Assembly (NCBI GenBank): GCA_945873815.1
Contig: CAMCEE010000016.1
Coordinates: 1 to 38,635 of the forward strand
From: an uncultured Caryophanales bacterium
GTDB lineage: Bacteria > Bacillota_I > Bacilli_A > RFN20 > CAG-449
DNA: 38,635 nt
Direction: 5' to 3'
A program made the position numbers and the translations under genes. Every line of letters begins with the position of its first letter. Position 1 is the stretch's first letter. The notes beneath the pieces are model-generated. The model was given only the letters and a program-made list of their open reading frames with translations. It did no database searches and had not been told where the DNA came from. This document shows, piece by piece, positions 2,265-38,509 of this stretch.

Positions 2265-2612
2265 TTAAAATACTTCTATTTCCTTTATCATTACTTCGTT
2301 TCCACGTATAAGAAATGTTTTATCACTTCCACAATGAGGACATATTTTTCCGTGCTCTACCGTACTATATTCCGCATTGCAATTCTCACATTTAGTTACG
2401 CCTTTTATTATATTAATGATTAGTTTGCATCCTTTCATTCTTTCACTACGGTTATCAACTGCCCATTTCCAACAATCCTCAAAATAAGAAGGGACAATCA
2501 TCGATACCTCACCTATTTCCAGCGTAACAGAATTAACGTGTTCAACTTTATTCTCACTAGCAATCTTATCAACTTTTTTTATTATATGGAAAACAACTCC
2601 TAATTCATGCAT
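2265..2612 (-). CDS. hypA: HypA, nickel-delivery/zinc protein for [NiFe] hydrogenase maturation
   Basis: HypA hands Ni(II) to the hydrogenase large subunit together with HypB. This 115-residue protein has the family's invariant MHE start, with His2 as nickel ligand, and a two-CxxC zinc-binding loop (CENC and CPHC) near residues 75-95. Length is typical. Its ATG overlaps the stop of the upstream oxidoreductase gene by one base (TAATG), so translation is probably coupled. No hydrogenase structural genes or hypCDEF are in the window, so the client protein is not evident; a hydrogenase elsewhere in the genome, or another nickel enzyme, is possible. Confidence 0.93.
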   Translation of the reverse strand: MHELGVVFHIIKKVDKIASENKVEHVNSVTLEIGEVSMIVPSYFEDCWKWAVDNRSERMKGCKLIINIIKGVTKCENCNAEYSTVEHGKICPHCGSDKTFLIRGNEVMIKEIEVF

Positions 2613-5539
2613 TACTTATTTTCCTTTTTTGCCTTAGCAACTCTTCTTTGATAAGCCTTATACTTCTTATCATATTCTTTTTCTTCTTTAGTTTTTTTAT
2701 TAAGAACAATCTTAACTGCACGTTTTGCTTGATATGGAAGAATATGTTTAAATTTATCCTCAGCAACAACCATATTCGTACATTCAGGATGATCACGAAC
2801 TAAATGAATAGCATCAAACTCACATTTTGTTGTACATACACCACATCCAATACACTTATTAGGATCAACGATTGATGCTCCACAACCTAAGCAACGAGCT
2901 GTTTCTTTCTTAATTTGTTCTTCGCTTAATGTATTATGATGATCACGGAATGAATTATGATAATCTCCCTCTTTCATACCAGCTTCTTGACGTTTACACG
3001 TATCATATTGCTCAATGAAAAGATTATTCTTATCTAATTCAATGAAATCATTTCTGTTTCTACCAATCGTTAATGAAGTATTTGGTTGAACAAATCTATG
3101 GATGGATATTGCAGCTTCTTTACCTTGAGCAATCGCATGAATTACAAACTTAGGTCCAGTATATACATCTCCACCAACGAAAATATCTGGTTCATTTGTT
3201 TGGAAAGTTAATACATCTGCAATTGGATAATTTCCATGCCAGAATTCAACTTTTGTTCCTTTTAATAAATCGCCCCAAACAATTGATTGACCAATTGCAC
3301 ATACAACATGCTTACAAGGAACGGTAAGCGTTACATTTTCATCGTATAAAGGAGAGAATTTCTTTGTTTCTGGATCTATTGTTCTTAGGCATTTTTTAAA
3401 CACTACTCCTGAAACATTACCATTCTCATCTTTTAAGATTTCCTTAGGTCCCCAAGAATTATTTATCTCAATATTTTCTAAAAGTGATTCCTCAATTCCA
3501 TCACTAGAAGCTAGCATATTATCTTTATCTTCCAAACAATACATTGATACCTTTGGAGCTTTGAATCTATGAGCAGTTCTTGCACAGTCAATTGCAACAT
3601 TACCCCCACCGATAATTACTACATCACCATCTAATTTACGATTTTCATCTTCAATAGCATCGTGTAAGAAATCTACTGCAATCTCTACTCCCTTAGCATC
3701 TTCTCCTTTTACTCCAGGAAGTTTACCGCCTTGGCATCCAATTGCAATATAGAATGCTTTATATCCTTGTTTTCTCAATTCATCGATTGTGATATCTTTA
3801 CCTACTTCAACTCCGCATTTAATATCTACTCCTAAAGCCTTAATGACATCGATTTCAGCATCGACAACATTCTTTTCAAGTTTAAATGATGGAATACCAT
3901 AAGTCATCATTCCACCTGGGCGTTTATTCTTTTCAAATACGGTTGGTTTATATCCTTTTGTTGCAAGATAATAAGCACAAGTTAATCCTGCAGGGCCTGC
4001 ACCAATGATTGCAATCTTTTCTTTCCATTCTGTTAATGGAACTTGTCTTGCAGGAGAAACAGGCATTACTATTTCTGGAATATATCTCGTTTCAGCATTT
4101 AAATCTTGTTCAGCGACAAATTTCTTAATCGCATCAATTGAAACAGCTTTATCAATAGTACCACGCGTACAAGCATCCTCACATGGATGATAGCATATGT
4201 GTCCACAAATTGAAGGGAATGGATTATTACGTTTAATAAGCGCTAAAGCTTCCTTATATCTACCTTGAGAAGCCATCTTTACATATCCTTGAACAGCAAC
4301 GTGTGCTGGACAGGATGTCTTACAAGGAGCAGTACCAGTATCATAGCAATTCTTACGGTTATTATCTCTATAATCTGGATCCCATTTATCAACGCCCCAA
4401 ACCTTATGATCAGGTAATTCATGACGAGGATATACGATTTCCCCTTGTTTTGTACATAATTTTTGTCCTAATTTAACTGCACCAGCTGGGCAATATTCTA
4501 CGCATCTTCCACAAGCTACACAATTCTTCGTTTCAACTTTTGCCGTATATGCACTTCTTGATAGATTTGGAGTATTGAATAATTGGCTAGTTCTTAATGC
4601 ATTGCAAATATTGACATTACAATTACAAATACCAAAAATCTTGTTTTCTCCATCGATATTAGTGATTTGATGAACAAAGCCATTCTCCTCTGCTTTTTTA
4701 AGAATTTCCATTGCTTCTTCATATGTGATGTCATGTCCTTTACCTGTTTCACGACAGTAATCAGCAAAGTCACCTACTCCAATACACCATCCATAATTAT
4801 CATCTCCACATCCTTCTCCTAGAGCCTGACGAGATGCACGGCATGAGCATTGCCCAACACCAATCTTATCCTTATATTTCTTCAACCAATAAGAAAGATG
4901 TTCTAAATCCACCGACTCATTTTCCATAGAGATTGCAGATTCAACTGGAATAACGTGCATTCCAACTCCTGCGCCTCCTGGAGGAACCATTTGAGTAACG
5001 CCAGCAAGAGGAACATAAGTCATTCTTTCAAAGAAAGACGCTACTGCAGGATGATCTTTCAATCTATTATTCTCACACTTATCATTTTCTTCCATATTAA
5101 ACATTTCTGCTGAACCTGGAACAAACATTGCTAAAATGTATCTTTTTTCCGATTGAGGTGCAGTTCTTCCATTATGGTCATAATGATTACCATAATCGAA
5201 CTCTAACAATCCAATATATAACATTTCATCAAGAAGTTTACGAAATTTTTCTCTATCTTTTGCTTTATCAGGATTTAACTCACACATTTCATCAAAAGTA
5301 TATGGCGTTCTTAGTTTCATTGAAAGACCAACTTCTGCCATTTCTTCCGTTAAAATTTCTGCAAGTCCCCAATATTCTGGGTCCTCTACTTTTACCCCAA
5401 ATAACTTATGATCTAAAACATCAGTTATCTTTTTACCTAATGCAATAATTTTATCACTTGGTTTTTTATCAAACATATGAGGTGGTATTACACTATCATA
5501 CATTTTTACAATATTCTTTTTATTTTTCTTTTCTTTCAT
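2612..5539 (-). CDS. Large Fe-S/FAD oxidoreductase with GltD-like core and terminal ferredoxin domains
   Basis: This 975-residue protein looks like a cytoplasmic electron-transfer flavoenzyme. Domains in order: a Cys-rich N-terminal region (cysteines at about 231-263 and 305-312), a ferredoxin-type cluster at 340-350 (CVACGRCVEYC), a GltD-type Fe-S region at about 398-457, an FAD Rossmann fold (IIGAGPAG, 511-518), a nested NAD(P) Rossmann fold (IIGGGNVA, 642-649), a second FAD motif (FVGGDV, 787-792), and a C-terminal double cluster (CLGCG; CIGCGVCTTKC, 883-906). It ends in a Lys-rich tail. The core matches the small subunit of glutamate synthase and NfnB-like flavoproteins, but no GltB partner is nearby. 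It lies between hypB (4 nt gap) and hypA (1 nt overlap). Exact electron donor and acceptor are unknown. Confidence 0.85.
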   Translation of the reverse strand: MKEKKNKKNIVKMYDSVIPPHMFDKKPSDKIIALGKKITDVLDHKLFGVKVEDPEYWGLAEILTEEMAEVGLSMKLRTPYTFDEMCELNPDKAKDREKFRKLLDEMLYIGLLEFDYGNHYDHNGRTAPQSEKRYILAMFVPGSAEMFNMEENDKCENNRLKDHPAVASFFERMTYVPLAGVTQMVPPGGAGVGMHVIPVESAISMENESVDLEHLSYWLKKYKDKIGVGQCSCRASRQALGEGCGDDNYGWCIGVGDFADYCRETGKGHDITYEEAMEILKKAEENGFVHQITNIDGENKIFGICNCNVNICNALRTSQLFNTPNLSRSAYTAKVETKNCVACGRCVEYCPAGAVKLGQKLCTKQGEIVYPRHELPDHKVWGVDKWDPDYRDNNRKNCYDTGTAPCKTSCPAHVAVQGYVKMASQGRYKEALALIKRNNPFPSICGHICYHPCEDACTRGTIDKAVSIDAIKKFVAEQDLNAETRYIPEIVMPVSPARQVPLTEWKEKIAIIGAGPAGLTCAYYLATKGYKPTVFEKNKRPGGMMTYGIPSFKLEKNVVDAEIDVIKALGVDIKCGVEVGKDITIDELRKQGYKAFYIAIGCQGGKLPGVKGEDAKGVEIAVDFLHDAIEDENRKLDGDVVIIGGGNVAIDCARTAHRFKAPKVSMYCLEDKDNMLASSDGIEESLLENIEINNSWGPKEILKDENGNVSGVVFKKCLRTIDPETKKFSPLYDENVTLTVPCKHVVCAIGQSIVWGDLLKGTKVEFWHGNYPIADVLTFQTNEPDIFVGGDVYTGPKFVIHAIAQGKEAAISIHRFVQPNTSLTIGRNRNDFIELDKNNLFIEQYDTCKRQEAGMKEGDYHNSFRDHHNTLSEEQIKKETARCLGCGASIVDPNKCIGCGVCTTKCEFDAIHLVRDHPECTNMVVAEDKFKHILPYQAKRAVKIVLNKKTKEEKEYDKKYKAYQRRVAKAKKENK

Positions 5540-5543
5540 ACTA

Positions 5544-6215
5544 CTATCCCTTCAATGAATGTATCTCATTTCTCAACCAATCGACAAACACTTCAATACC
5601 ATCTCCATTCTTCGCAGAAATTGGCATTACTAATGCATTTGGATTACGCATATGAACATTTCTCTTACATTCTTCTAAATCGAAATCAAAATAAGGAATT
5701 ACATCAATTTTATTAACTAATACCACATCGCATACGGAATACATAAGAGGATATTTTAGCGGTTTATCCGCACCTTCTGGAACGGATAAGATGGTAATAC
5801 TCTTTATCGCTCCTGTATCAAATTCTGCCGGACAAACTAGATTACCAACATTTTCTAAAATCACAAGATCCACATTATTTAAGTCTAAATTATCGATTCC
5901 TTGTCTTGTCATTCCCGCGTCAAGATGACACATTCCACCAGTATGCAATTGAATTGATTCTACTCCAGTAGCTTCTTTAATCTTTTTAGCGTCTATATCC
6001 GAATCGATATCCGCTTCCATTACTGCAATTTTAAATTCGTCTTTAAGAAGATTGATAACTCTTGATAAAGTTGTAGTTTTCCCACTTCCTGGAGAAGACA
6101 TAACATTAAGTAAATAAACTCCCTTACTTCTTAAATATTCTCTTAGTTCGTCAGCTTCTTTATTATTATCTTCAAAAACGCTTGCTTTGATTTCTATAAT
6201 TCGAACGTCTTCCAT
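5544..6215 (-). CDS. hypB: HypB, GTPase for nickel insertion into hydrogenase
   Basis: HypB is a SIMIBI-class GTPase that acts with HypA in loading nickel. The 223-residue protein shows the P-loop SSPGSGKTTT (about residues 41-50), the metal-site region with CHLD near 116, the family signature ENVGNLVCPAEFD (about 140-152), VPEGADKPLKYP (about 164-175) and the guanine motif NKID (about 188-191). The N terminus lacks both the CxxCGC nickel site and the His-rich stretch present in some HypB proteins. It opens an operon with the oxidoreductase and hypA and has a strong ribosome site (AAGGGGG) 7 nt before the ATG. Confidence 0.94.
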   Translation of the reverse strand: MEDVRIIEIKASVFEDNNKEADELREYLRSKGVYLLNVMSSPGSGKTTTLSRVINLLKDEFKIAVMEADIDSDIDAKKIKEATGVESIQLHTGGMCHLDAGMTRQGIDNLDLNNVDLVILENVGNLVCPAEFDTGAIKSITILSVPEGADKPLKYPLMYSVCDVVLVNKIDVIPYFDFDLEECKRNVHMRNPNALVMPISAKNGDGIEVFVDWLRNEIHSLKG

Positions 6216-6402: not shown

Positions 6403-7707
6403 TTATTTTCTTACTTTCTTACCGATTGCATAATATGTTACACCTTGTAATTGATATGGATTCAATACAGCTTTACCATCAAATACAATTGGGTGCTTCA
6501 TAAACTCAATGATTTCTTCTGCTTTTAATGATTTGAATTCTTCACTTTCATTTAAGAAGATTGCATAATCGCTAGTTCTTAATGCTTCCTCTAATGTATT
6601 TGCATAAACAAGATGTTGATCGCTCTTCATCTTCTTTCTAAATGCATTAGTTGAATTTGAATCATAAGCGATAACTTTAGCATCTTCCTTAAGTAAATTC
6701 TCAATTACCTTAAATGCAGGAGATTCTCTAATATCATCCGTATTTCCTTTATATGCTAAACCAAGAACTGCGAACTTTTTTCCTGCGCAACTTCCAATGA
6801 TGGATTTAATTTTCTTAATGAGCGCTAAAGGACGAGAACTATTAACTCTAACCGCAGCATTTAAAATTTGTAAATCTACATTATTTTCTTGAGCCATTTC
6901 TCTCATAACGTTAGTATCTTGTGGAAGAGAAGGTCCTCCAAATCCAACGCCAGAAGCTAAATATTTATTTCCAATACGTGGATCTAAACCGATACCGAAA
7001 CTTACTTCTTTAATATCTGCTCCTACAGCATCACATAAATCAGCAATTTCATTAATGTATGATAATTTGACTGCCAAATAACAGTTTGAAGCATATTTAA
7101 TTAATTCAGCACTTTCTGGTGAAACGAACAATAATGGTGAATCAAATCCAGCATATAATTCTTTCATCACTTTTTGTGCTTCTTTAGTGGAAACACCAAC
7201 AACAATTCTTGAAGGAGAAAGCATATCCTTAATCGCAGTACCTTGTGATAAGAAATCTGGGTTTGAAACTACATCAATCTTAAATTTATGTCCGACACAC
7301 TCTTCAACAAATTCTTTAAAATGCTTGTTCGTTCCAACAGGGACCGTAGTTCTAATAATCAATGTAACATCTTGATTAATGAATCTTGCGCACTCTTTTG
7401 CAACGCTATATAAAGGAGTTAAATCTAATACTCCTGGTTCTTTCTCTTTTTCTTTTGTCTCAATGCAGAACATAATAACATTTGAATCATAAATTGCATC
7501 TCTATATTCTGATGTGAATCTAATATTAACATCGTTTTTTGCAAGGATATCTTCTAACTTGTATTCATTTCTAAATACTTCATTTCTTCTAAATGCAGCA
7601 ATCTTTTTCTTATCTGAGTCTAAAGCAAAAACTTGATGACCTTTTTCTGCAAAGCCAACAGCGTTAACTAGCCCAACAAAATCCATTCCTACAATTGTTA
7701 TTTTCAT
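6403..7707 (-). CDS. UDP-glucose 6-dehydrogenase family protein lacking the catalytic Cys
   Basis: This 434-residue protein aligns along the whole length of UDP-glucose/UDP-ManNAc dehydrogenases, which oxidise a nucleotide sugar with NAD+ to the uronate. Retained: RTTVPVGT (119-126), the Lys and Asn of the central motif (K204, N208), Asp264, and the C-terminal NTDDIRESPA. Changed: the active-site motif, normally GGSCxPKD, reads GGPSLPQD (258-264), so the nucleophilic Cys is Ser260 and the Lys is Gln; the first Gly-rich motif GxGxxG reads GMDFVG with Asp at the second Gly; and NPEFLREG reads NPDFLSQG. It may be a weak or altered enzyme, or a regulatory paralogue. A cre-like site lies upstream, and the ribosome site is GGAGG. 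Confidence 0.8.
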   Translation of the reverse strand: MKITIVGMDFVGLVNAVGFAEKGHQVFALDSDKKKIAAFRRNEVFRNEYKLEDILAKNDVNIRFTSEYRDAIYDSNVIMFCIETKEKEKEPGVLDLTPLYSVAKECARFINQDVTLIIRTTVPVGTNKHFKEFVEECVGHKFKIDVVSNPDFLSQGTAIKDMLSPSRIVVGVSTKEAQKVMKELYAGFDSPLLFVSPESAELIKYASNCYLAVKLSYINEIADLCDAVGADIKEVSFGIGLDPRIGNKYLASGVGFGGPSLPQDTNVMREMAQENNVDLQILNAAVRVNSSRPLALIKKIKSIIGSCAGKKFAVLGLAYKGNTDDIRESPAFKVIENLLKEDAKVIAYDSNSTNAFRKKMKSDQHLVYANTLEEALRTSDYAIFLNESEEFKSLKAEEIIEFMKHPIVFDGKAVLNPYQLQGVTYYAIGKKVRK

Positions 7708-7770
7708 ATACTACCTCCGCTAAGTAATCGTGCAAAATAATTATTACATAAAAATTCATTTTTTACTAAA

Positions 7771-8800: not shown

Positions 8801-9142
8801 TTAATCACCGTAATCAGATCCACGAGACTTATCTTCGACATAAATTTGAAGTGGATTTGTTATATCTTGAACAGTTAAATAAATCGCTCCATTAACATCG
8901 GTTATTTCCTCATCGTCATCTCCTATAAAAACAACTAAATGGTTGCGTTTGACTATTCTTTCCATTTCCTCTATAATATTCGAATAGCGATCCTCGTAAT
9001 GGAGTTTGAACGCTTGAAGTTTCAAATAGAATACTGGTTCAATATAAAATGTATCTCCATTATCATAAACAAATTTTGCAGTGTAAGGATTTTGAGGATC
9101 AATCTCTTGTCTTAAATCCTTCCATTCATAATATTTTTCCAT
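8801..9142 (-). CDS. Small acidic protein of unknown function
   Basis: I do not recognise this 113-residue protein. It is rich in Asp, Glu, Tyr and aromatic residues, has no membrane segment or signal peptide, and looks like a soluble mixed alpha/beta protein: an amphipathic stretch at about 42-66 and a DDDEE cluster near residue 75. I place the start at the ATG at 9142 because AGGTG lies 6 nt before it; the GTG three codons upstream would put the ribosome site inside the gene. It is divergent from the HAD phosphatase and has its own terminator. Confidence 0.65.
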   Translation of the reverse strand: MEKYYEWKDLRQEIDPQNPYTAKFVYDNGDTFYIEPVFYLKLQAFKLHYEDRYSNIIEEMERIVKRNHLVVFIGDDDEEITDVNGAIYLTVQDITNPLQIYVEDKSRGSDYGD

Positions 9143-9209
9143 TTTTGTCACCTATAATCAATTATAGAAGAGAAAAATAAAAAATCAACTAGGAAAAAAA
9201 GGAGAGAAT

Positions 9210-14485: not shown

Positions 14486-15017
14486 AGAAACTCCTTTTTA
14501 TATCTTCAAAAGAATTAACATCGATATAATTCACTTTAGTTTCCTCACACACACTAAATATCTCCTTATTGAACAAAGTATAGATACTACTATTTTTCTC
14601 ATTATCAATAAGCAAAGAAGAGACGTAAATATTCTTATTTATATCCTTAATGATGTTGATCATCTCATATAAATAATAATGAAATAAATCAATTTCACTA
14701 TTTAATAAATCCATGGCGATATTATCAATAACATTACGTGTATTGTAATATCCAATACTAATAAATATTTTCTTTGATTGTTTTATCACTTCTATAATAG
14801 ATTCTTGATTATTGATCCTACCATTACTATCCACAATCTTATATAAATCTCGAATAGGGAAATCACTAAAAGAGAAAGAATCATTCACTTTACTTCCATT
14901 AGGAAAAAAGGAAACTAGATTATACTCTCCTAAATACGCAATATCATTTTTCTTAAATCCACAGCTAGTACAAAGAATAATGCAAAAGCAAATAAACAAT
15001 TTTTTAATCATCCTCAT
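14469..15017 (-). CDS. Lipoprotein with SGNH-hydrolase-like features
   Basis: A 182-residue protein with a lipoprotein signal: basic MRMIKKL, hydrophobic core, and lipobox LCTSC with the lipid-modified Cys at residue 19. The mature part alternates strands and helices in the way of SGNH/GDSL hydrolases: FISIGYYNTRN where GxND is expected, then a helix-rich stretch YLYEMINIIKDINKNIYVSSL. A clear nucleophile block GDS is not visible, so activity is doubtful. It overlaps the murA stop by 14 nt and the next gene by 17 nt, suggesting translational coupling and a role at the cell surface. Confidence 0.65.
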   Translation of the reverse strand: MRMIKKLFICFCIILCTSCGFKKNDIAYLGEYNLVSFFPNGSKVNDSFSFSDFPIRDLYKIVDSNGRINNQESIIEVIKQSKKIFISIGYYNTRNVIDNIAMDLLNSEIDLFHYYLYEMINIIKDINKNIYVSSLLIDNEKNSSIYTLFNKEIFSVCEETKVNYIDVNSFEDIKRSFYDLFG

Positions 15018-16257
15018 AGATCCCTACCTCATTATTTAAACTGCATAATTTATCGATAACATCTTCATATCCACGGTATAGATATTCTAGCCCATAAATC
15101 TTCGTTTTAATTGGATTTAGAAAAGCATAAAGAACATAAGCCATCGTTTCCCTTAAGTTGTGCCCAATCAGTTTAAAATGCGCTCTATGATGATTTCTAG
15201 GATTAATCAATACCTTATCATTTTTAAAATAACAAGCCTTACCGAATTCCTTCATAAAAAGGATTCTTTTCTTATATATTAGATCATTAACTAAAGACAT
15301 CTTTTTATTATTTAGTAGAAGATAGACTAATAATAATGGTTCGATATCGGTAGAGACATCCTCCTCATTTCCAAAGGATAAAACAATACCTTTATCAATC
15401 ATCTTCTTTTGAAAATATCCAACCTTTTCTCCAATATCATATGTAGCTTCTATATGATCTAGAAAAGATAGGAATGGAATATGGTGGATTTTATTAATAT
15501 CTACTAGAATCATTCTTCCATATGTTAAAGCAAATATCATAAATGTTTCTGCTTCTATACGATCTGAAATAATTGTATATTCAATAGGTTTAAAATCATT
15601 TGTACCTTCAATAACTATCTTCTTATCATCATATTCAATATTAACTCCCATCATTCTTAACACATTGATTACTTCAATCACTTCAACTTCGTGTGAATAA
15701 TTATAAAGAATGGATCTACCCTTAATATAAGAAGCTAAAAGAATAGCATTGATACTTCCTCCAACACTCTTTTTCTTAAATCTATATTCGTTTGGATGTA
15801 AATCATTCTTTCTAAAAATATAGCCCATTCCATCCCTTTTACAATCCACACCAAAAGAGGAAAAAACATCAATATGAATATCGATAGGTCTCTTTTCAAA
15901 ATCGCATCCTCCAATAGAAGAGATTTGAACTTCATCATTATAGTAAAGAAGTACTGGGATTAAGTAATAAGAAGCGCGAAGTAACCCTACTTCCTCCATC
16001 GTTAAAGGAACATACTCTATTGAAGATGAATCGATTATTAAATCATTATTAATAAAAGATGATCTAACATTCAATAAATCAAAAATCTTTAATAGATTTG
16101 TAATATCACTTATCCGTGGAACATTATGTATAAGAGATTTATTTTTGCATAATAAAACACTTGAAATGATTGGTAAGGAAGCATTCTTAGAACCAGATAT
16201 TTTAATGATTCCTTCTATTTCCTTATTACCATAGCATTCCAAGTGTCTAGTATTCAT
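15004..16257 (-). CDS. murA: UDP-N-acetylglucosamine 1-carboxyvinyltransferase (MurA family)
   Basis: MurA transfers enolpyruvate from PEP to UDP-GlcNAc, the first committed step of peptidoglycan synthesis. This 417-residue protein keeps the key residues: K24-N25 in SGSKNASLP, the catalytic Cys118 and Arg123 in GGCDFEKRP, Asp304 in STDIEP, and Arg395 in YRGYEDV. The surrounding motifs are unusually divergent (the C-terminal DLRAGAA motif reads NLRETMA), so this may be a second MurA (MurZ-type) paralogue. It is followed by an overlapping lipoprotein gene. I choose the ATG at 16257; a TTG two codons earlier is possible, and neither has a strong ribosome site. The intact Cys predicts fosfomycin sensitivity. 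Confidence 0.85.
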   Translation of the reverse strand: MNTRHLECYGNKEIEGIIKISGSKNASLPIISSVLLCKNKSLIHNVPRISDITNLLKIFDLLNVRSSFINNDLIIDSSSIEYVPLTMEEVGLLRASYYLIPVLLYYNDEVQISSIGGCDFEKRPIDIHIDVFSSFGVDCKRDGMGYIFRKNDLHPNEYRFKKKSVGGSINAILLASYIKGRSILYNYSHEVEVIEVINVLRMMGVNIEYDDKKIVIEGTNDFKPIEYTIISDRIEAETFMIFALTYGRMILVDINKIHHIPFLSFLDHIEATYDIGEKVGYFQKKMIDKGIVLSFGNEEDVSTDIEPLLLVYLLLNNKKMSLVNDLIYKKRILFMKEFGKACYFKNDKVLINPRNHHRAHFKLIGHNLRETMAYVLYAFLNPIKTKIYGLEYLYRGYEDVIDKLCSLNNEVGIYEDD

Positions 16258-16291
16258 AATCAATATTATGAACTCATAAAAATTCTTATTA

Positions 16292-25429: not shown

Positions 25430-26302
25430 TTATTTAACTAATGAATTAATATATTCTTGTACTTTATCCTTTAATTCATCTCTTCTTAAACTAAAATCAA
25501 TAATAGCCTTAACAAAACCGAATTTATCTCCTACATCGTATCTTGTTCCTTCAAAATCATATGCATAGACTCCCTCGATATCCATAAGTCTTTTAATCGA
25601 ATCTGTAAGTTGAATTTCTCCTCCCTTTCCAGGAGTTTGAGTTTTTAATAATTCAAAGATTTTAGGAGTCAAGATATATCTACCTAATCCCGCATAACAA
25701 GAAGGAGCTTCTTCTGTCTTTGGTTTTTCAACAAAGTCAGATATCTTAATTAGTCTTCCATCAATACTAACTGGTTTAACTACACCATATTTATGAACTA
25801 CTTCTCTTGCAACTTCTTGTACCCCTAGAATTGAAGAACCAACCTTATCATAAGCATCAATCATTTGTTTTAAAACTGGAGTTCCTCCAACATTAGACAT
25901 TAAATCATCTCCAAGAAGAATTGCAAATGGCTCATCGCCTACAAACTCTTCAGCAAGAGAAACAGCATGTCCTAATCCTTTAGGATCATTTTGTTGAACG
26001 TAACTAATCTTGCACATAGTACCTATATGATGAACTAAATCATATTCATCCTTTTTATTTGTTTCTAATAATTTATTCTCTAATTTTTCATCAACAGAAA
26101 AATATTTATGAATTATAGTTTTATCAACATTATCAATAATTAAAATCTCTTCAATACCTGAATCTATTGCTTCTTCAATAATATATTGAACTGTTGGAAT
26201 ATCAATAATAGGCAACATCTCTTTTGGTAACCCTTTTGTAACCGGTAAAAATCTAGTTCCTAATCCCGCAGCAGGAATAATTGCTTTTCTAATTTTTTTC
26301 AT
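25430..26302 (-). CDS. galU: UTP-glucose-1-phosphate uridylyltransferase
   Basis: GalU makes UDP-glucose from UTP and glucose-1-phosphate. The 290-residue protein has the signature PAAGLGTRFLPVTKGLPKEM (residues 10-29), the metal region LLGDDLM, and FVEKPK, with the C-terminal RYDVGDKFGF motif of bacterial GalU. Length is normal. UDP-glucose is the precursor for the Ugd-like protein and for surface polysaccharide, which fits the polysaccharide locus further right. It has its own promoter and terminator and a GGGG ribosome site. Confidence 0.95.
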   Translation of the reverse strand: MKKIRKAIIPAAGLGTRFLPVTKGLPKEMLPIIDIPTVQYIIEEAIDSGIEEILIIDNVDKTIIHKYFSVDEKLENKLLETNKKDEYDLVHHIGTMCKISYVQQNDPKGLGHAVSLAEEFVGDEPFAILLGDDLMSNVGGTPVLKQMIDAYDKVGSSILGVQEVAREVVHKYGVVKPVSIDGRLIKISDFVEKPKTEEAPSCYAGLGRYILTPKIFELLKTQTPGKGGEIQLTDSIKRLMDIEGVYAYDFEGTRYDVGDKFGFVKAIIDFSLRRDELKDKVQEYINSLVK

Positions 26303-36820: not shown

Positions 36821-38509
36821 CTATTTCATTTCATCAAGGTATCTTTTTAAAGCATCTTCCCATTTAGGCAATCTATTGAAACCTGCTTCGTCTAGTGAAG
36901 ATTTAGATAGTCTAGAATTAAGAGGCCTTTTTGCTTGTTGTGGAAACATATTTAGATATTCATTAGTTGAAATCGGTATAACTTTAACATTTTTCTTAGA
37001 TAATTCAAATATTTTTTTTGCAAAATCTGCCCATGATAAAAATCCTTCATTTGTAGCGTGATAGATTCCATATTTATCAGTTTCAATCATATCACAAAGC
37101 AATTTTGCTAAATCACGTGTATAAGTTACGCTTCCTATTTGATCAGAAACAACTTTAACCTCGTTTTTTCCTTCGTCAGCAATTTTAAGCATTGTTTTAA
37201 CGAAATTATTTCCATTTTTACCAAATGCCCATGAAATTCTCACAATAAAATATTTATTGTGGCTAGAAACAATATAATCTTCACCAAGAGATTTTGTCCT
37301 ACCATATACAGACAAGCCACACTTAGAATCATCTATTTCAAACGGAGTATTCCCAAGACCATCAAAAACATAATCTGTAGAAATGTATATCATCTTTGCA
37401 CCTAATACGTTGCAAGCTTCAGCAATAAACTTAGGAGCCAATGAATTAATCTGATATACTTTTTCCTCATTTTCTTCTGCAATATCAACCGAAGTCCATG
37501 CAGCATTATGAATAACAATATCTGGTTTATAATTAAACAAAAAAGCTTTTGTATCGCTTTCGTTAGTTAAATCTAGATCTTCAATATCTATTCCTCTAAC
37601 ATTTATATATTCACGATTACTAAGTTCTCTCATGCAATCAAATCCAAGTTGGCCTTTACATCCCGTTACAAGAATTCTTTTTGATTTTAAAACAATATTC
37701 CTTATTTTCGAATTATCACCATATATACATGGCGAATCATATGGTCTATCTGGATAGACACCATACTTTAATTCAATTGGTAATTTATTATACGAAATAT
37801 ACCATTCAACTTGTTCTGCTAATGACACTGCTTTACCTGAGCAAACATTAATTATTCCCAACACTTTATCTTGCATTACACACATTGAAATTTGCTTTGC
37901 CAAATCATCTATATGAATAAAATCATATTTATTCTTACCAGTAGTGAAAGGAAATGTCTTCTCTCCTCGCTCAACTGCTTGCCTAATCTTACAGAAAATA
38001 GAATTTCCAAACGTATCATCACCAAAAATATAATATGCTCTTAGCCATTGAAATTTACATCCTTTTTGTAAAGAATATAATTCAATAGATTTTCTTAATG
38101 CATTTTTAGCAATTCCATATTGTGATAGTGGATTGCAAGGAGTATTTTCGTCGATTACGCCTTCCCAATACCCAATTTCATGCATTGTGCCCATAACAGC
38201 TATTTGATTGATGCCTTCATCAATGAGTTTTGTTAAAAAACGATAATGATTTGATAAGTCAAGCATGTGTTTATTTGAATTATGAACAAATCCATTTCTC
38301 CAAGCTAAATGTAAGCATACATCCGGATTCTTAAAAAAAGATTTCCATTCTTCTCTTTCTTCAAAAATATTAGCTTCAATAAAGCAAGCTCTTTTGTCAA
38401 TATTTGTGCAACTTAAATCAGTAGCAATAACTTCTACCCCAAAATCACAAAGTTTTTTTACTACTTTAGATCCTATGTATCCATTAGCACCTGTCACTAA
38501 TATTTTCAT
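36821..38509 (-). CDS. Fused NAD-dependent epimerase/dehydratase and dTDP-4-dehydrorhamnose reductase
   Basis: A 562-residue two-domain protein. The first domain (about 1-275) is an extended SDR epimerase/dehydratase with the NAD motif GANGYIG (7-13) and the YxxxK pair Y131/K135. The second (about 278-562) is RmlD-like, with GCKGQLG (283-289), STDYVFDG (377-384) and Y402/K406; RmlD makes dTDP-L-rhamnose with NAD(P)H. The upstream rfbC end and the overlap of signals (stop TAA 1 nt before this ATG) show a dTDP-rhamnose operon. What the first domain does, perhaps another nucleotide-sugar step, is unknown. Such fusions occur in some Firmicutes, but separate genes are usual. Confidence 0.85.
   Translation of the reverse strand: MKILVTGANGYIGSKVVKKLCDFGVEVIATDLSCTNIDKRACFIEANIFEEREEWKSFFKNPDVCLHLAWRNGFVHNSNKHMLDLSNHYRFLTKLIDEGINQIAVMGTMHEIGYWEGVIDENTPCNPLSQYGIAKNALRKSIELYSLQKGCKFQWLRAYYIFGDDTFGNSIFCKIRQAVERGEKTFPFTTGKNKYDFIHIDDLAKQISMCVMQDKVLGIINVCSGKAVSLAEQVEWYISYNKLPIELKYGVYPDRPYDSPCIYGDNSKIRNIVLKSKRILVTGCKGQLGFDCMRELSNREYINVRGIDIEDLDLTNESDTKAFLFNYKPDIVIHNAAWTSVDIAEENEEKVYQINSLAPKFIAEACNVLGAKMIYISTDYVFDGLGNTPFEIDDSKCGLSVYGRTKSLGEDYIVSSHNKYFIVRISWAFGKNGNNFVKTMLKIADEGKNEVKVVSDQIGSVTYTRDLAKLLCDMIETDKYGIYHATNEGFLSWADFAKKIFELSKKNVKVIPISTNEYLNMFPQQAKRPLNSRLSKSSLDEAGFNRLPKWEDALKRYLDEMK

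Follow-up and report, generated by a model that had tools for sequence, protein, structure and literature searches.

A UDP-glucose dehydrogenase homologue lacking the catalytic cysteine is conserved throughout a family of Bacilli and is a candidate UDP-sugar-binding pseudoenzyme

Results

A member of the UDP-glucose dehydrogenase family at the locus

The window, by which we mean the whole stretch of 38,635 nucleotides that was analysed, carries on its minus strand a gene of the UDP-glucose dehydrogenase (UGD) family, which runs from an ATG at 7707 to a stop at 6403 and has no internal stop in its 434 codons (Table 1). The product matched Pfam PF03721, PF00984 and PF03720 with 142, 110 and 95 bits, all far above the cut-offs, and an AlphaFold model (mean pLDDT 80, alignment of 13 sequences) showed the UGDH fold, with BceC and other UGDHs as the top PDB matches at a TM of about 0.75. 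By domains and fold, the protein is therefore a homologue within the NDP-sugar dehydrogenase superfamily. It also matched the NCBIfam subfamily model TIGR03026, and its score against the TuaD equivalog, 359 bits, was about half the cut-off of 700. A domain search of the window's own genome found no second protein with the central domain PF00984. The model was weak in the loop of residues 257-260, and this was considered as a mark of a changed loop; however, a canonical ortholog modelled from a similarly shallow alignment was weaker there, and the idea was dropped.

Table 1. Features of the UGD gene and of its surroundings in the window
Feature	Position	Strand	Remark
Putative pseudo-UDP-glucose dehydrogenase gene	6403..7707	-	434 aa; full three-domain NDP-sugar dehydrogenase architecture; orthologs in 18/18 family genomes
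GGAGG, predicted ribosome-binding site	7714..7718	-	6 nt before the UGD ATG; from sequence
NAD-binding loop GMDFVG, residues 7-12	7672..7689	-	Gly9 to Asp, Tyr10 to Phe; in the family Gly9 10/18, Tyr10 0/18
Residues 61-75 (NIRFTSEYRDAIYDS)	7483..7527	-	newly constrained in f1: divergence 0.18 vs 0.64 canonical; candidate new interface
Degenerate VGTP loop, IETK, residues 82-85	7453..7464	-	Thr83 in 5/18; nicotinamide-ribose contact of active enzymes
K204...N208 (KYASN)	7084..7098	-	retained, 18/18
Arg244	6976..6978	-	retained, 18/18; in active UGDHs, extends to the sugar of the partner subunit (PMC4794789)
Former nucleophile loop GGPSLPQD, residues 257-264	6916..6939	-	Cys260 to Ser, Lys263 to Gln, Asp264 retained
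Lys320	6748..6750	-	retained, 18/18; binds the UDP-sugar diphosphate in active UGDHs (PMC4794789)
Residues 361-375 (KSDQHLVYANTLEEA)	6583..6627	-	newly constrained in f1: divergence 0.20 vs 0.74 canonical; candidate new interface
Lys412 in place of the invariant Arg of the C-terminal DGR motif	6472..6474	-	Lys 18/18; Arg in 43/43 canonical
HypA, HypB and GltD-like genes	2265..6215	-	downstream of UGD; HypA and HypB flank a 975-aa iron-sulfur GltD-like flavoprotein; string not seen beside UGD in the other f1 loci compared
116-aa orphan	8801..9151	-	no Pfam or PDB match; near-invariant C-terminal tail EDKSRGSDYGD; in f4 located in the rplI-dnaB-rlmH region
MurA-like gene	15004..16263	-	very fast evolution in f1 (mean pairwise identity 37%); no second MurA copy detected in the window's genome
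GalU gene	25430..26302		in the same window as UGD
Epimerase-RmlD fusion	36821..38509	-	562 aa; NAD-dependent epimerase domain and RmlD (dTDP-4-dehydrorhamnose reductase) domain

Catalytic residues are replaced in every member of the family

A sequence-only reading of this DNA had reported a full-length, well-kept gene in which the nucleophilic Cys of the GGxCxxKD loop is replaced by Ser260, the Lys of the same loop by Gln263, and a Gly of the NAD-binding motif by Asp9. These replacements were all confirmed, but the list was incomplete: Tyr10 is changed to Phe, VGTP to IETK, Glu151 (Sp Glu141) to Asp and Arg412 to Lys. In the following, the ligand roles of residues are taken from cited papers on distant homologs and mapped onto the window protein by alignment. 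Eighteen residues, the nucleophilic Cys included, are invariant across 229 NDP-sugar dehydrogenases, for which their roles have been listed (PMC4794789); the window protein is without four of them, Gly9, Ser117, Glu141 and Cys260. Neither the GxGxxG nor the VGTP motif for NAD binding is intact, and Cys260, the mark of a functional UDP-glucose 6-dehydrogenase, is absent. The Gln at residue 155 (Sp Glu145) was considered as a further component of the loss and rejected, since it is also found in many Cys-bearing UGDs of Bacilli.

The window belongs to a GTDB family (here f1) represented by 18 genomes in four genera, all of them drafts in about 20-200 contigs, and those with a stated source are metagenome-assembled Bacilli, several from gut samples. 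Each of the 18 has one full-length UGD ortholog, the other 17 being 62-80% identical to the window protein. No other PF00984 protein was found in 16 of these genomes, while the remaining two encode, in addition to the Cys-less protein, a capsule-type enzyme whose loop has the usual sequence GGYCLPKD. Position 260 is occupied by Ala in nine orthologs, by Ser in six and by Trp in three (genus g2), and never by Cys, which is found in 43/43 canonical comparison sequences. In our first motif table, Cys was likewise kept by all sequences outside f1, which are of the UGD or capsule type with GGxC..KD except for one of the UDP-ManNAc type (L032, GGHCISVD). A sequencing error at this codon, which had been named as a possible refutation, is thus rejected because the Cys is missing throughout the family. 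In one ortholog (L011 of genome G007), two one-residue insertions in the region of the NAD loop, at residues 7-8 and 30-33 (VGGMDFIG and LDSSDKKK), may be real or may be assembly errors.

Other positions changed with the Cys. The Tyr of thioester hydrolysis at position 10, 98% conserved in the survey of NDP-sugar dehydrogenases (PMC4794789) and found in 42 of 43 canonical sequences, is Phe in 17 orthologs and Leu in one. Besides Gly9 and Thr83 (Table 1), Ser117 (10/18), Glu141 (13/18) and Thr118 (15/18) are partly kept. From these losses we strongly infer that the f1 proteins would no longer carry out the four-electron reaction. A normal four-electron dehydrogenase in which Ser260 substitutes for Cys appears very improbable: Ser is isosteric, and the fold and most pocket residues are preserved, but Ala or Trp stands at this position in 12/18 orthologs, Tyr10 and Lys263 are also gone, and the human Cys276Ser enzyme accumulates a covalent adduct (PMC3184952). 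Because the site varies among Ala, Ser and Trp, alignment identifies Ser260 as one state of a drifting position and not as a replacement nucleophile.

The UDP-sugar pocket is retained

The claim that K204, N208 and D264 remain held for the window protein and for all 18 orthologs. The same is true of Gly7, Gly12, Pro140, Glu201, Asn219, Gly257, Gly258, Asn287 and Lys320, and the predicted UDP-sugar contacts K204, N208, L211, R244, G257 and K320 are each invariant in f1, so that the substrate and base residues of a functional UGDH (K204, N208, D264, R244, K320) are all present. On the adenosine side of NAD, Asp30 (18/18) and Arg327 (17/18) are kept. Since these two residues and the general base Asp264 persist, NAD binding is weakened on paper only, and a first oxidation step is conceivable. 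The Arg of the DGR motif is Lys in all orthologs, and the affinity for UDP may therefore have changed.

The chief rival to a non-catalytic role is a two-electron enzyme, because Cys260 serves the second oxidation (PMC4794789). Such an enzyme would oxidise a UDP-sugar to its C6 aldehyde, or reduce the aldehyde again, by means of K204, N208 and D264 and without a thioester, and would either yield UDP-6-aldehydo-glucose or be redox-neutral with tightly bound NAD. The conservation of these three residues, of Asp30 and of the first and third Gly of GxGxxG in 18/18 orthologs is in agreement with this proposal, as is the failure of human Cys276 mutants to carry the reaction to its end when they start from UDP-glucose (PMC3184952); according to the title of Sommer et al. 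2004, as given in the reference list of PMC4794789, the second of the two oxidations requires Cys276. However, Thr83 (5/18), Lys263 (0/18), which contacts the nicotinamide ribose, and Gly9 (10/18), all residues that contact or accommodate NAD, vary among the orthologs, Trp at the Cys position in g2 should crowd the C6 site, and no gene for an aldehyde-using partner adjoins UGD. Although it is the chief rival, we disfavour this reading and regard it as unlikely. More generally, the drift of the Cys site among Ala, Ser and Trp, and the loss or variability of the nicotinamide-side NAD contacts Gly9, Thr83 and Lys263, speak against a Ser-dependent reaction or a half-reaction shared by the whole family.

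An active dehydrogenase or other enzyme that acts on a different substrate with other catalytic residues could account for the strong constraint on the gene (see below), for the kept pocket residues and for several residues that are fixed specifically in f1 (P259, V195, Y210, K412, N416 and Y418). The alignment of the 18 orthologs nevertheless contains no new invariant Cys, His or Glu at the active site, and the former nucleophile site tolerates Ala, Ser and Trp, unlike a catalytic position. Another sugar substrate is not indicated, because the contacts Leu211 and Arg244 are invariant and remain of the UDP-glucose type. We therefore consider this alternative quite improbable. Among the three options that the sequence-only reading had offered, the half-reaction and the other sugar substrate thus lose ground, and a non-enzymatic role is the best fit.

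The gene descends vertically from a Cys-bearing UGD, and Cys was lost more than once

Most Cys-bearing orthologs are found in a sister family (f4), in which UGD of this type is present in 31 of 224 genomes (E <= 1e-60). The usual gene order in f4 is gdpP - rplI - dnaB - MBL hydrolase - rlmH - HAD hydrolase - 116-aa orphan - UGD - membrane protein, and the last four genes of this string, from the HAD hydrolase to the membrane protein, are still together in f1. Because this order is common to the Cys-bearing orthologs, the Cys-less gene of f1 is the positional ortholog of the normal enzyme and not an import, and horizontal gain of an odd UGD was rejected. The locus comparison establishes vertical descent from a Cys-bearing UGD that is still present in f4. 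One genome (G132) has a second UGD-like gene elsewhere, with 33% identity to the canonical query.

Five of the 31 UGDs in f4, all from one genus (g37), also lack the Cys, with loops reading GGTFYPKD (L129), GG-VMEET (L131) and GG[SP][MV]LP[IF]S (L135, L137 and L139). The last three proteins carry the further changes Thr118 to Phe, Asp264 to Ser and Tyr10 to His, while all five retain Lys204, Arg244, Lys320, Gly257 and Gly258. The Cys-less genes of g37 occupy the same locus as the Cys-bearing ones. In the tree, all f1 sequences group together with an SH-aLRT support of 100 and are set off by a long stem of 0.68 changes per site, which places the f1 loss early, and the f4 losses nest inside Cys-bearing f4 sequences; parsimony gives three changes, two of which are forced by supported branches. 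Constraining all Cys-less proteins to a single clade was rejected by the AU test (p = 3.8e-5), a value that is to be taken as a guide and not as an exact probability, since the group was named after inspection of the tree and the tree came from a quick search. The tree and alignment of Ugd-like proteins from relatives, which had been proposed as a check, thus show a Cys loss that spans all of f1 and a second one in f4, and we conclude that the Cys was lost independently in the two families.

The Cys-less gene is under strong constraint in f1

We compared the selection on UGD with that on its neighbours by Nei-Gojobori counts, in which dS is saturated in distant pairs. In three close pairs of f1 genomes, the dN/dS of UGD was 0.011, 0.014 and 0.013, the lowest among the locus genes compared; values for the FTCD-like, HAD, orphan and lipase genes in the same pairs were 0.038-0.138. 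Mean pairwise identity across f1 was 70% for UGD and 32-66% for eight other locus genes. Relative to the orphan gene, the divergence of UGD was 0.60 in f1, 0.82 in canonical f4 and 1.11 in Cys-less f4, and the Cys-less f4 genes had dN/dS values of 0.05-0.07 at saturated dS. By these values, purifying selection on the f1 gene is extreme, while after the f4 losses it seems to have eased without ceasing. Because of this faster evolution, the Cys-less proteins of f4 may be the product of relaxation and not of a new role that is shared.

A gene decaying on its way out would have lost active-site residues as this one has, UGD of this type is confined to a minority of f4 genomes, and the Cys-less f4 copies evolve faster than the canonical ones. 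For the window's own family, however, decay is already contradicted by the low dN/dS, by the presence of full-length copies in all 18 genomes, which span four genera, and by the highest conservation of any locus gene compared, and we regard it as extremely improbable. The earlier preference for a changed activity over decay is upheld by the same values.

Constraint is unevenly distributed along the protein. Within f1, the NAD domain evolves under weaker constraint than the other two (ratio of ratios 1.24, 95% interval 1.04-1.49), and residues 76-90, which include the VGTP segment, are the sole 15-residue block in which f1 shows more divergence than the canonical sequences do. Two blocks show the opposite behaviour and are candidates for a new interface (Table 1).

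Discussion

We judge it a little better than even that the f1 protein is a pseudo-dehydrogenase that has been exapted as a UDP-sugar-binding regulator or scaffold and that does not produce UDP-glucuronic acid. The gene would have come down vertically from an ordinary UDP-glucose 6-dehydrogenase that occupied this chromosomal locus. On the f1 stem, the residues of covalent catalysis and thioester hydrolysis (Cys260 and Tyr10) would have been lost, and the contacts on the nicotinamide side of NAD would have become free to drift, with no change in the UDP-sugar pocket or in the intersubunit Arg. Given these losses and the drifting NAD contacts, UDP-glucuronic acid should not be made. The folded and probably dimeric protein most likely binds UDP-glucose or a similar UDP-sugar, and its bound state may control or scaffold a partner by way of residues 61-75 and 361-375. 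UDP-glucose is a plausible ligand because a GalU gene lies in the window and because UDP-glucose-responsive regulators occur elsewhere. As a counterpoint, the Trp260 of one genus might fill the sugar pocket.

It also counts against this reading that no gene neighbour was tied to UGD. A functional link with the adjacent orphan was rejected, for 240 of the 279 genomes of the order carry the orphan, with or without UGD. A bolder version, in which the dead UGD became a lineage-wide UDP-sugar receptor, that is, a UDP-glucose-gated regulator that is near-essential in f1, with f4 as a second independent path to Cys-less forms, is put forward tentatively, and we think it possible rather than probable.

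The Cys is reported invariant in 229 NDP-sugar dehydrogenases, yet it is gone in every f1 member, and the sister clade lost it separately. Among the papers accessible to our literature search, none described a UGDH pseudoenzyme or a Cys-less NDP-sugar dehydrogenase. Together with the active-looking orthologs at the same locus, these proteins form a natural set of pseudoenzymes that offers a handle on non-catalytic roles of UDP-sugar dehydrogenases. Automatic annotation as UDP-glucose 6-dehydrogenase would wrongly assign UDP-glucuronic acid synthesis to these gut bacteria.

The closest known system is UDP-glucose 6-dehydrogenase itself (TuaD/BceC/UgdG, EC 1.1.1.22), with which the window protein shares the three domains, 33-34% identity and the fold of 4a7p and 2y0c, synteny with Cys-bearing orthologs and invariant UDP-sugar contacts. 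Unlike that enzyme, it has lost Cys260, Tyr10, Lys263 and VGTP throughout f1, and its TuaD score is far under the cut-off. The GDP-mannose and UDP-ManNAc dehydrogenases (AlgD and WecC/Cap5O) belong to the same superfamily, but both retain the catalytic Cys (PMC4794789) and carry His or Arg where the window protein has the UDPGDH-type Leu211. As a working analogy only, UgtP of B. subtilis and OpgH of E. coli, UDP-glucose-responsive moonlighting glucosyltransferases that inhibit FtsZ (PMC3723540), illustrate how a UDP-glucose binder may report sugar status to another machine; contact with FtsZ and an effect on division are known for these two and not for the f1 protein, their folds are unrelated to that of UGD, and both are active enzymes.
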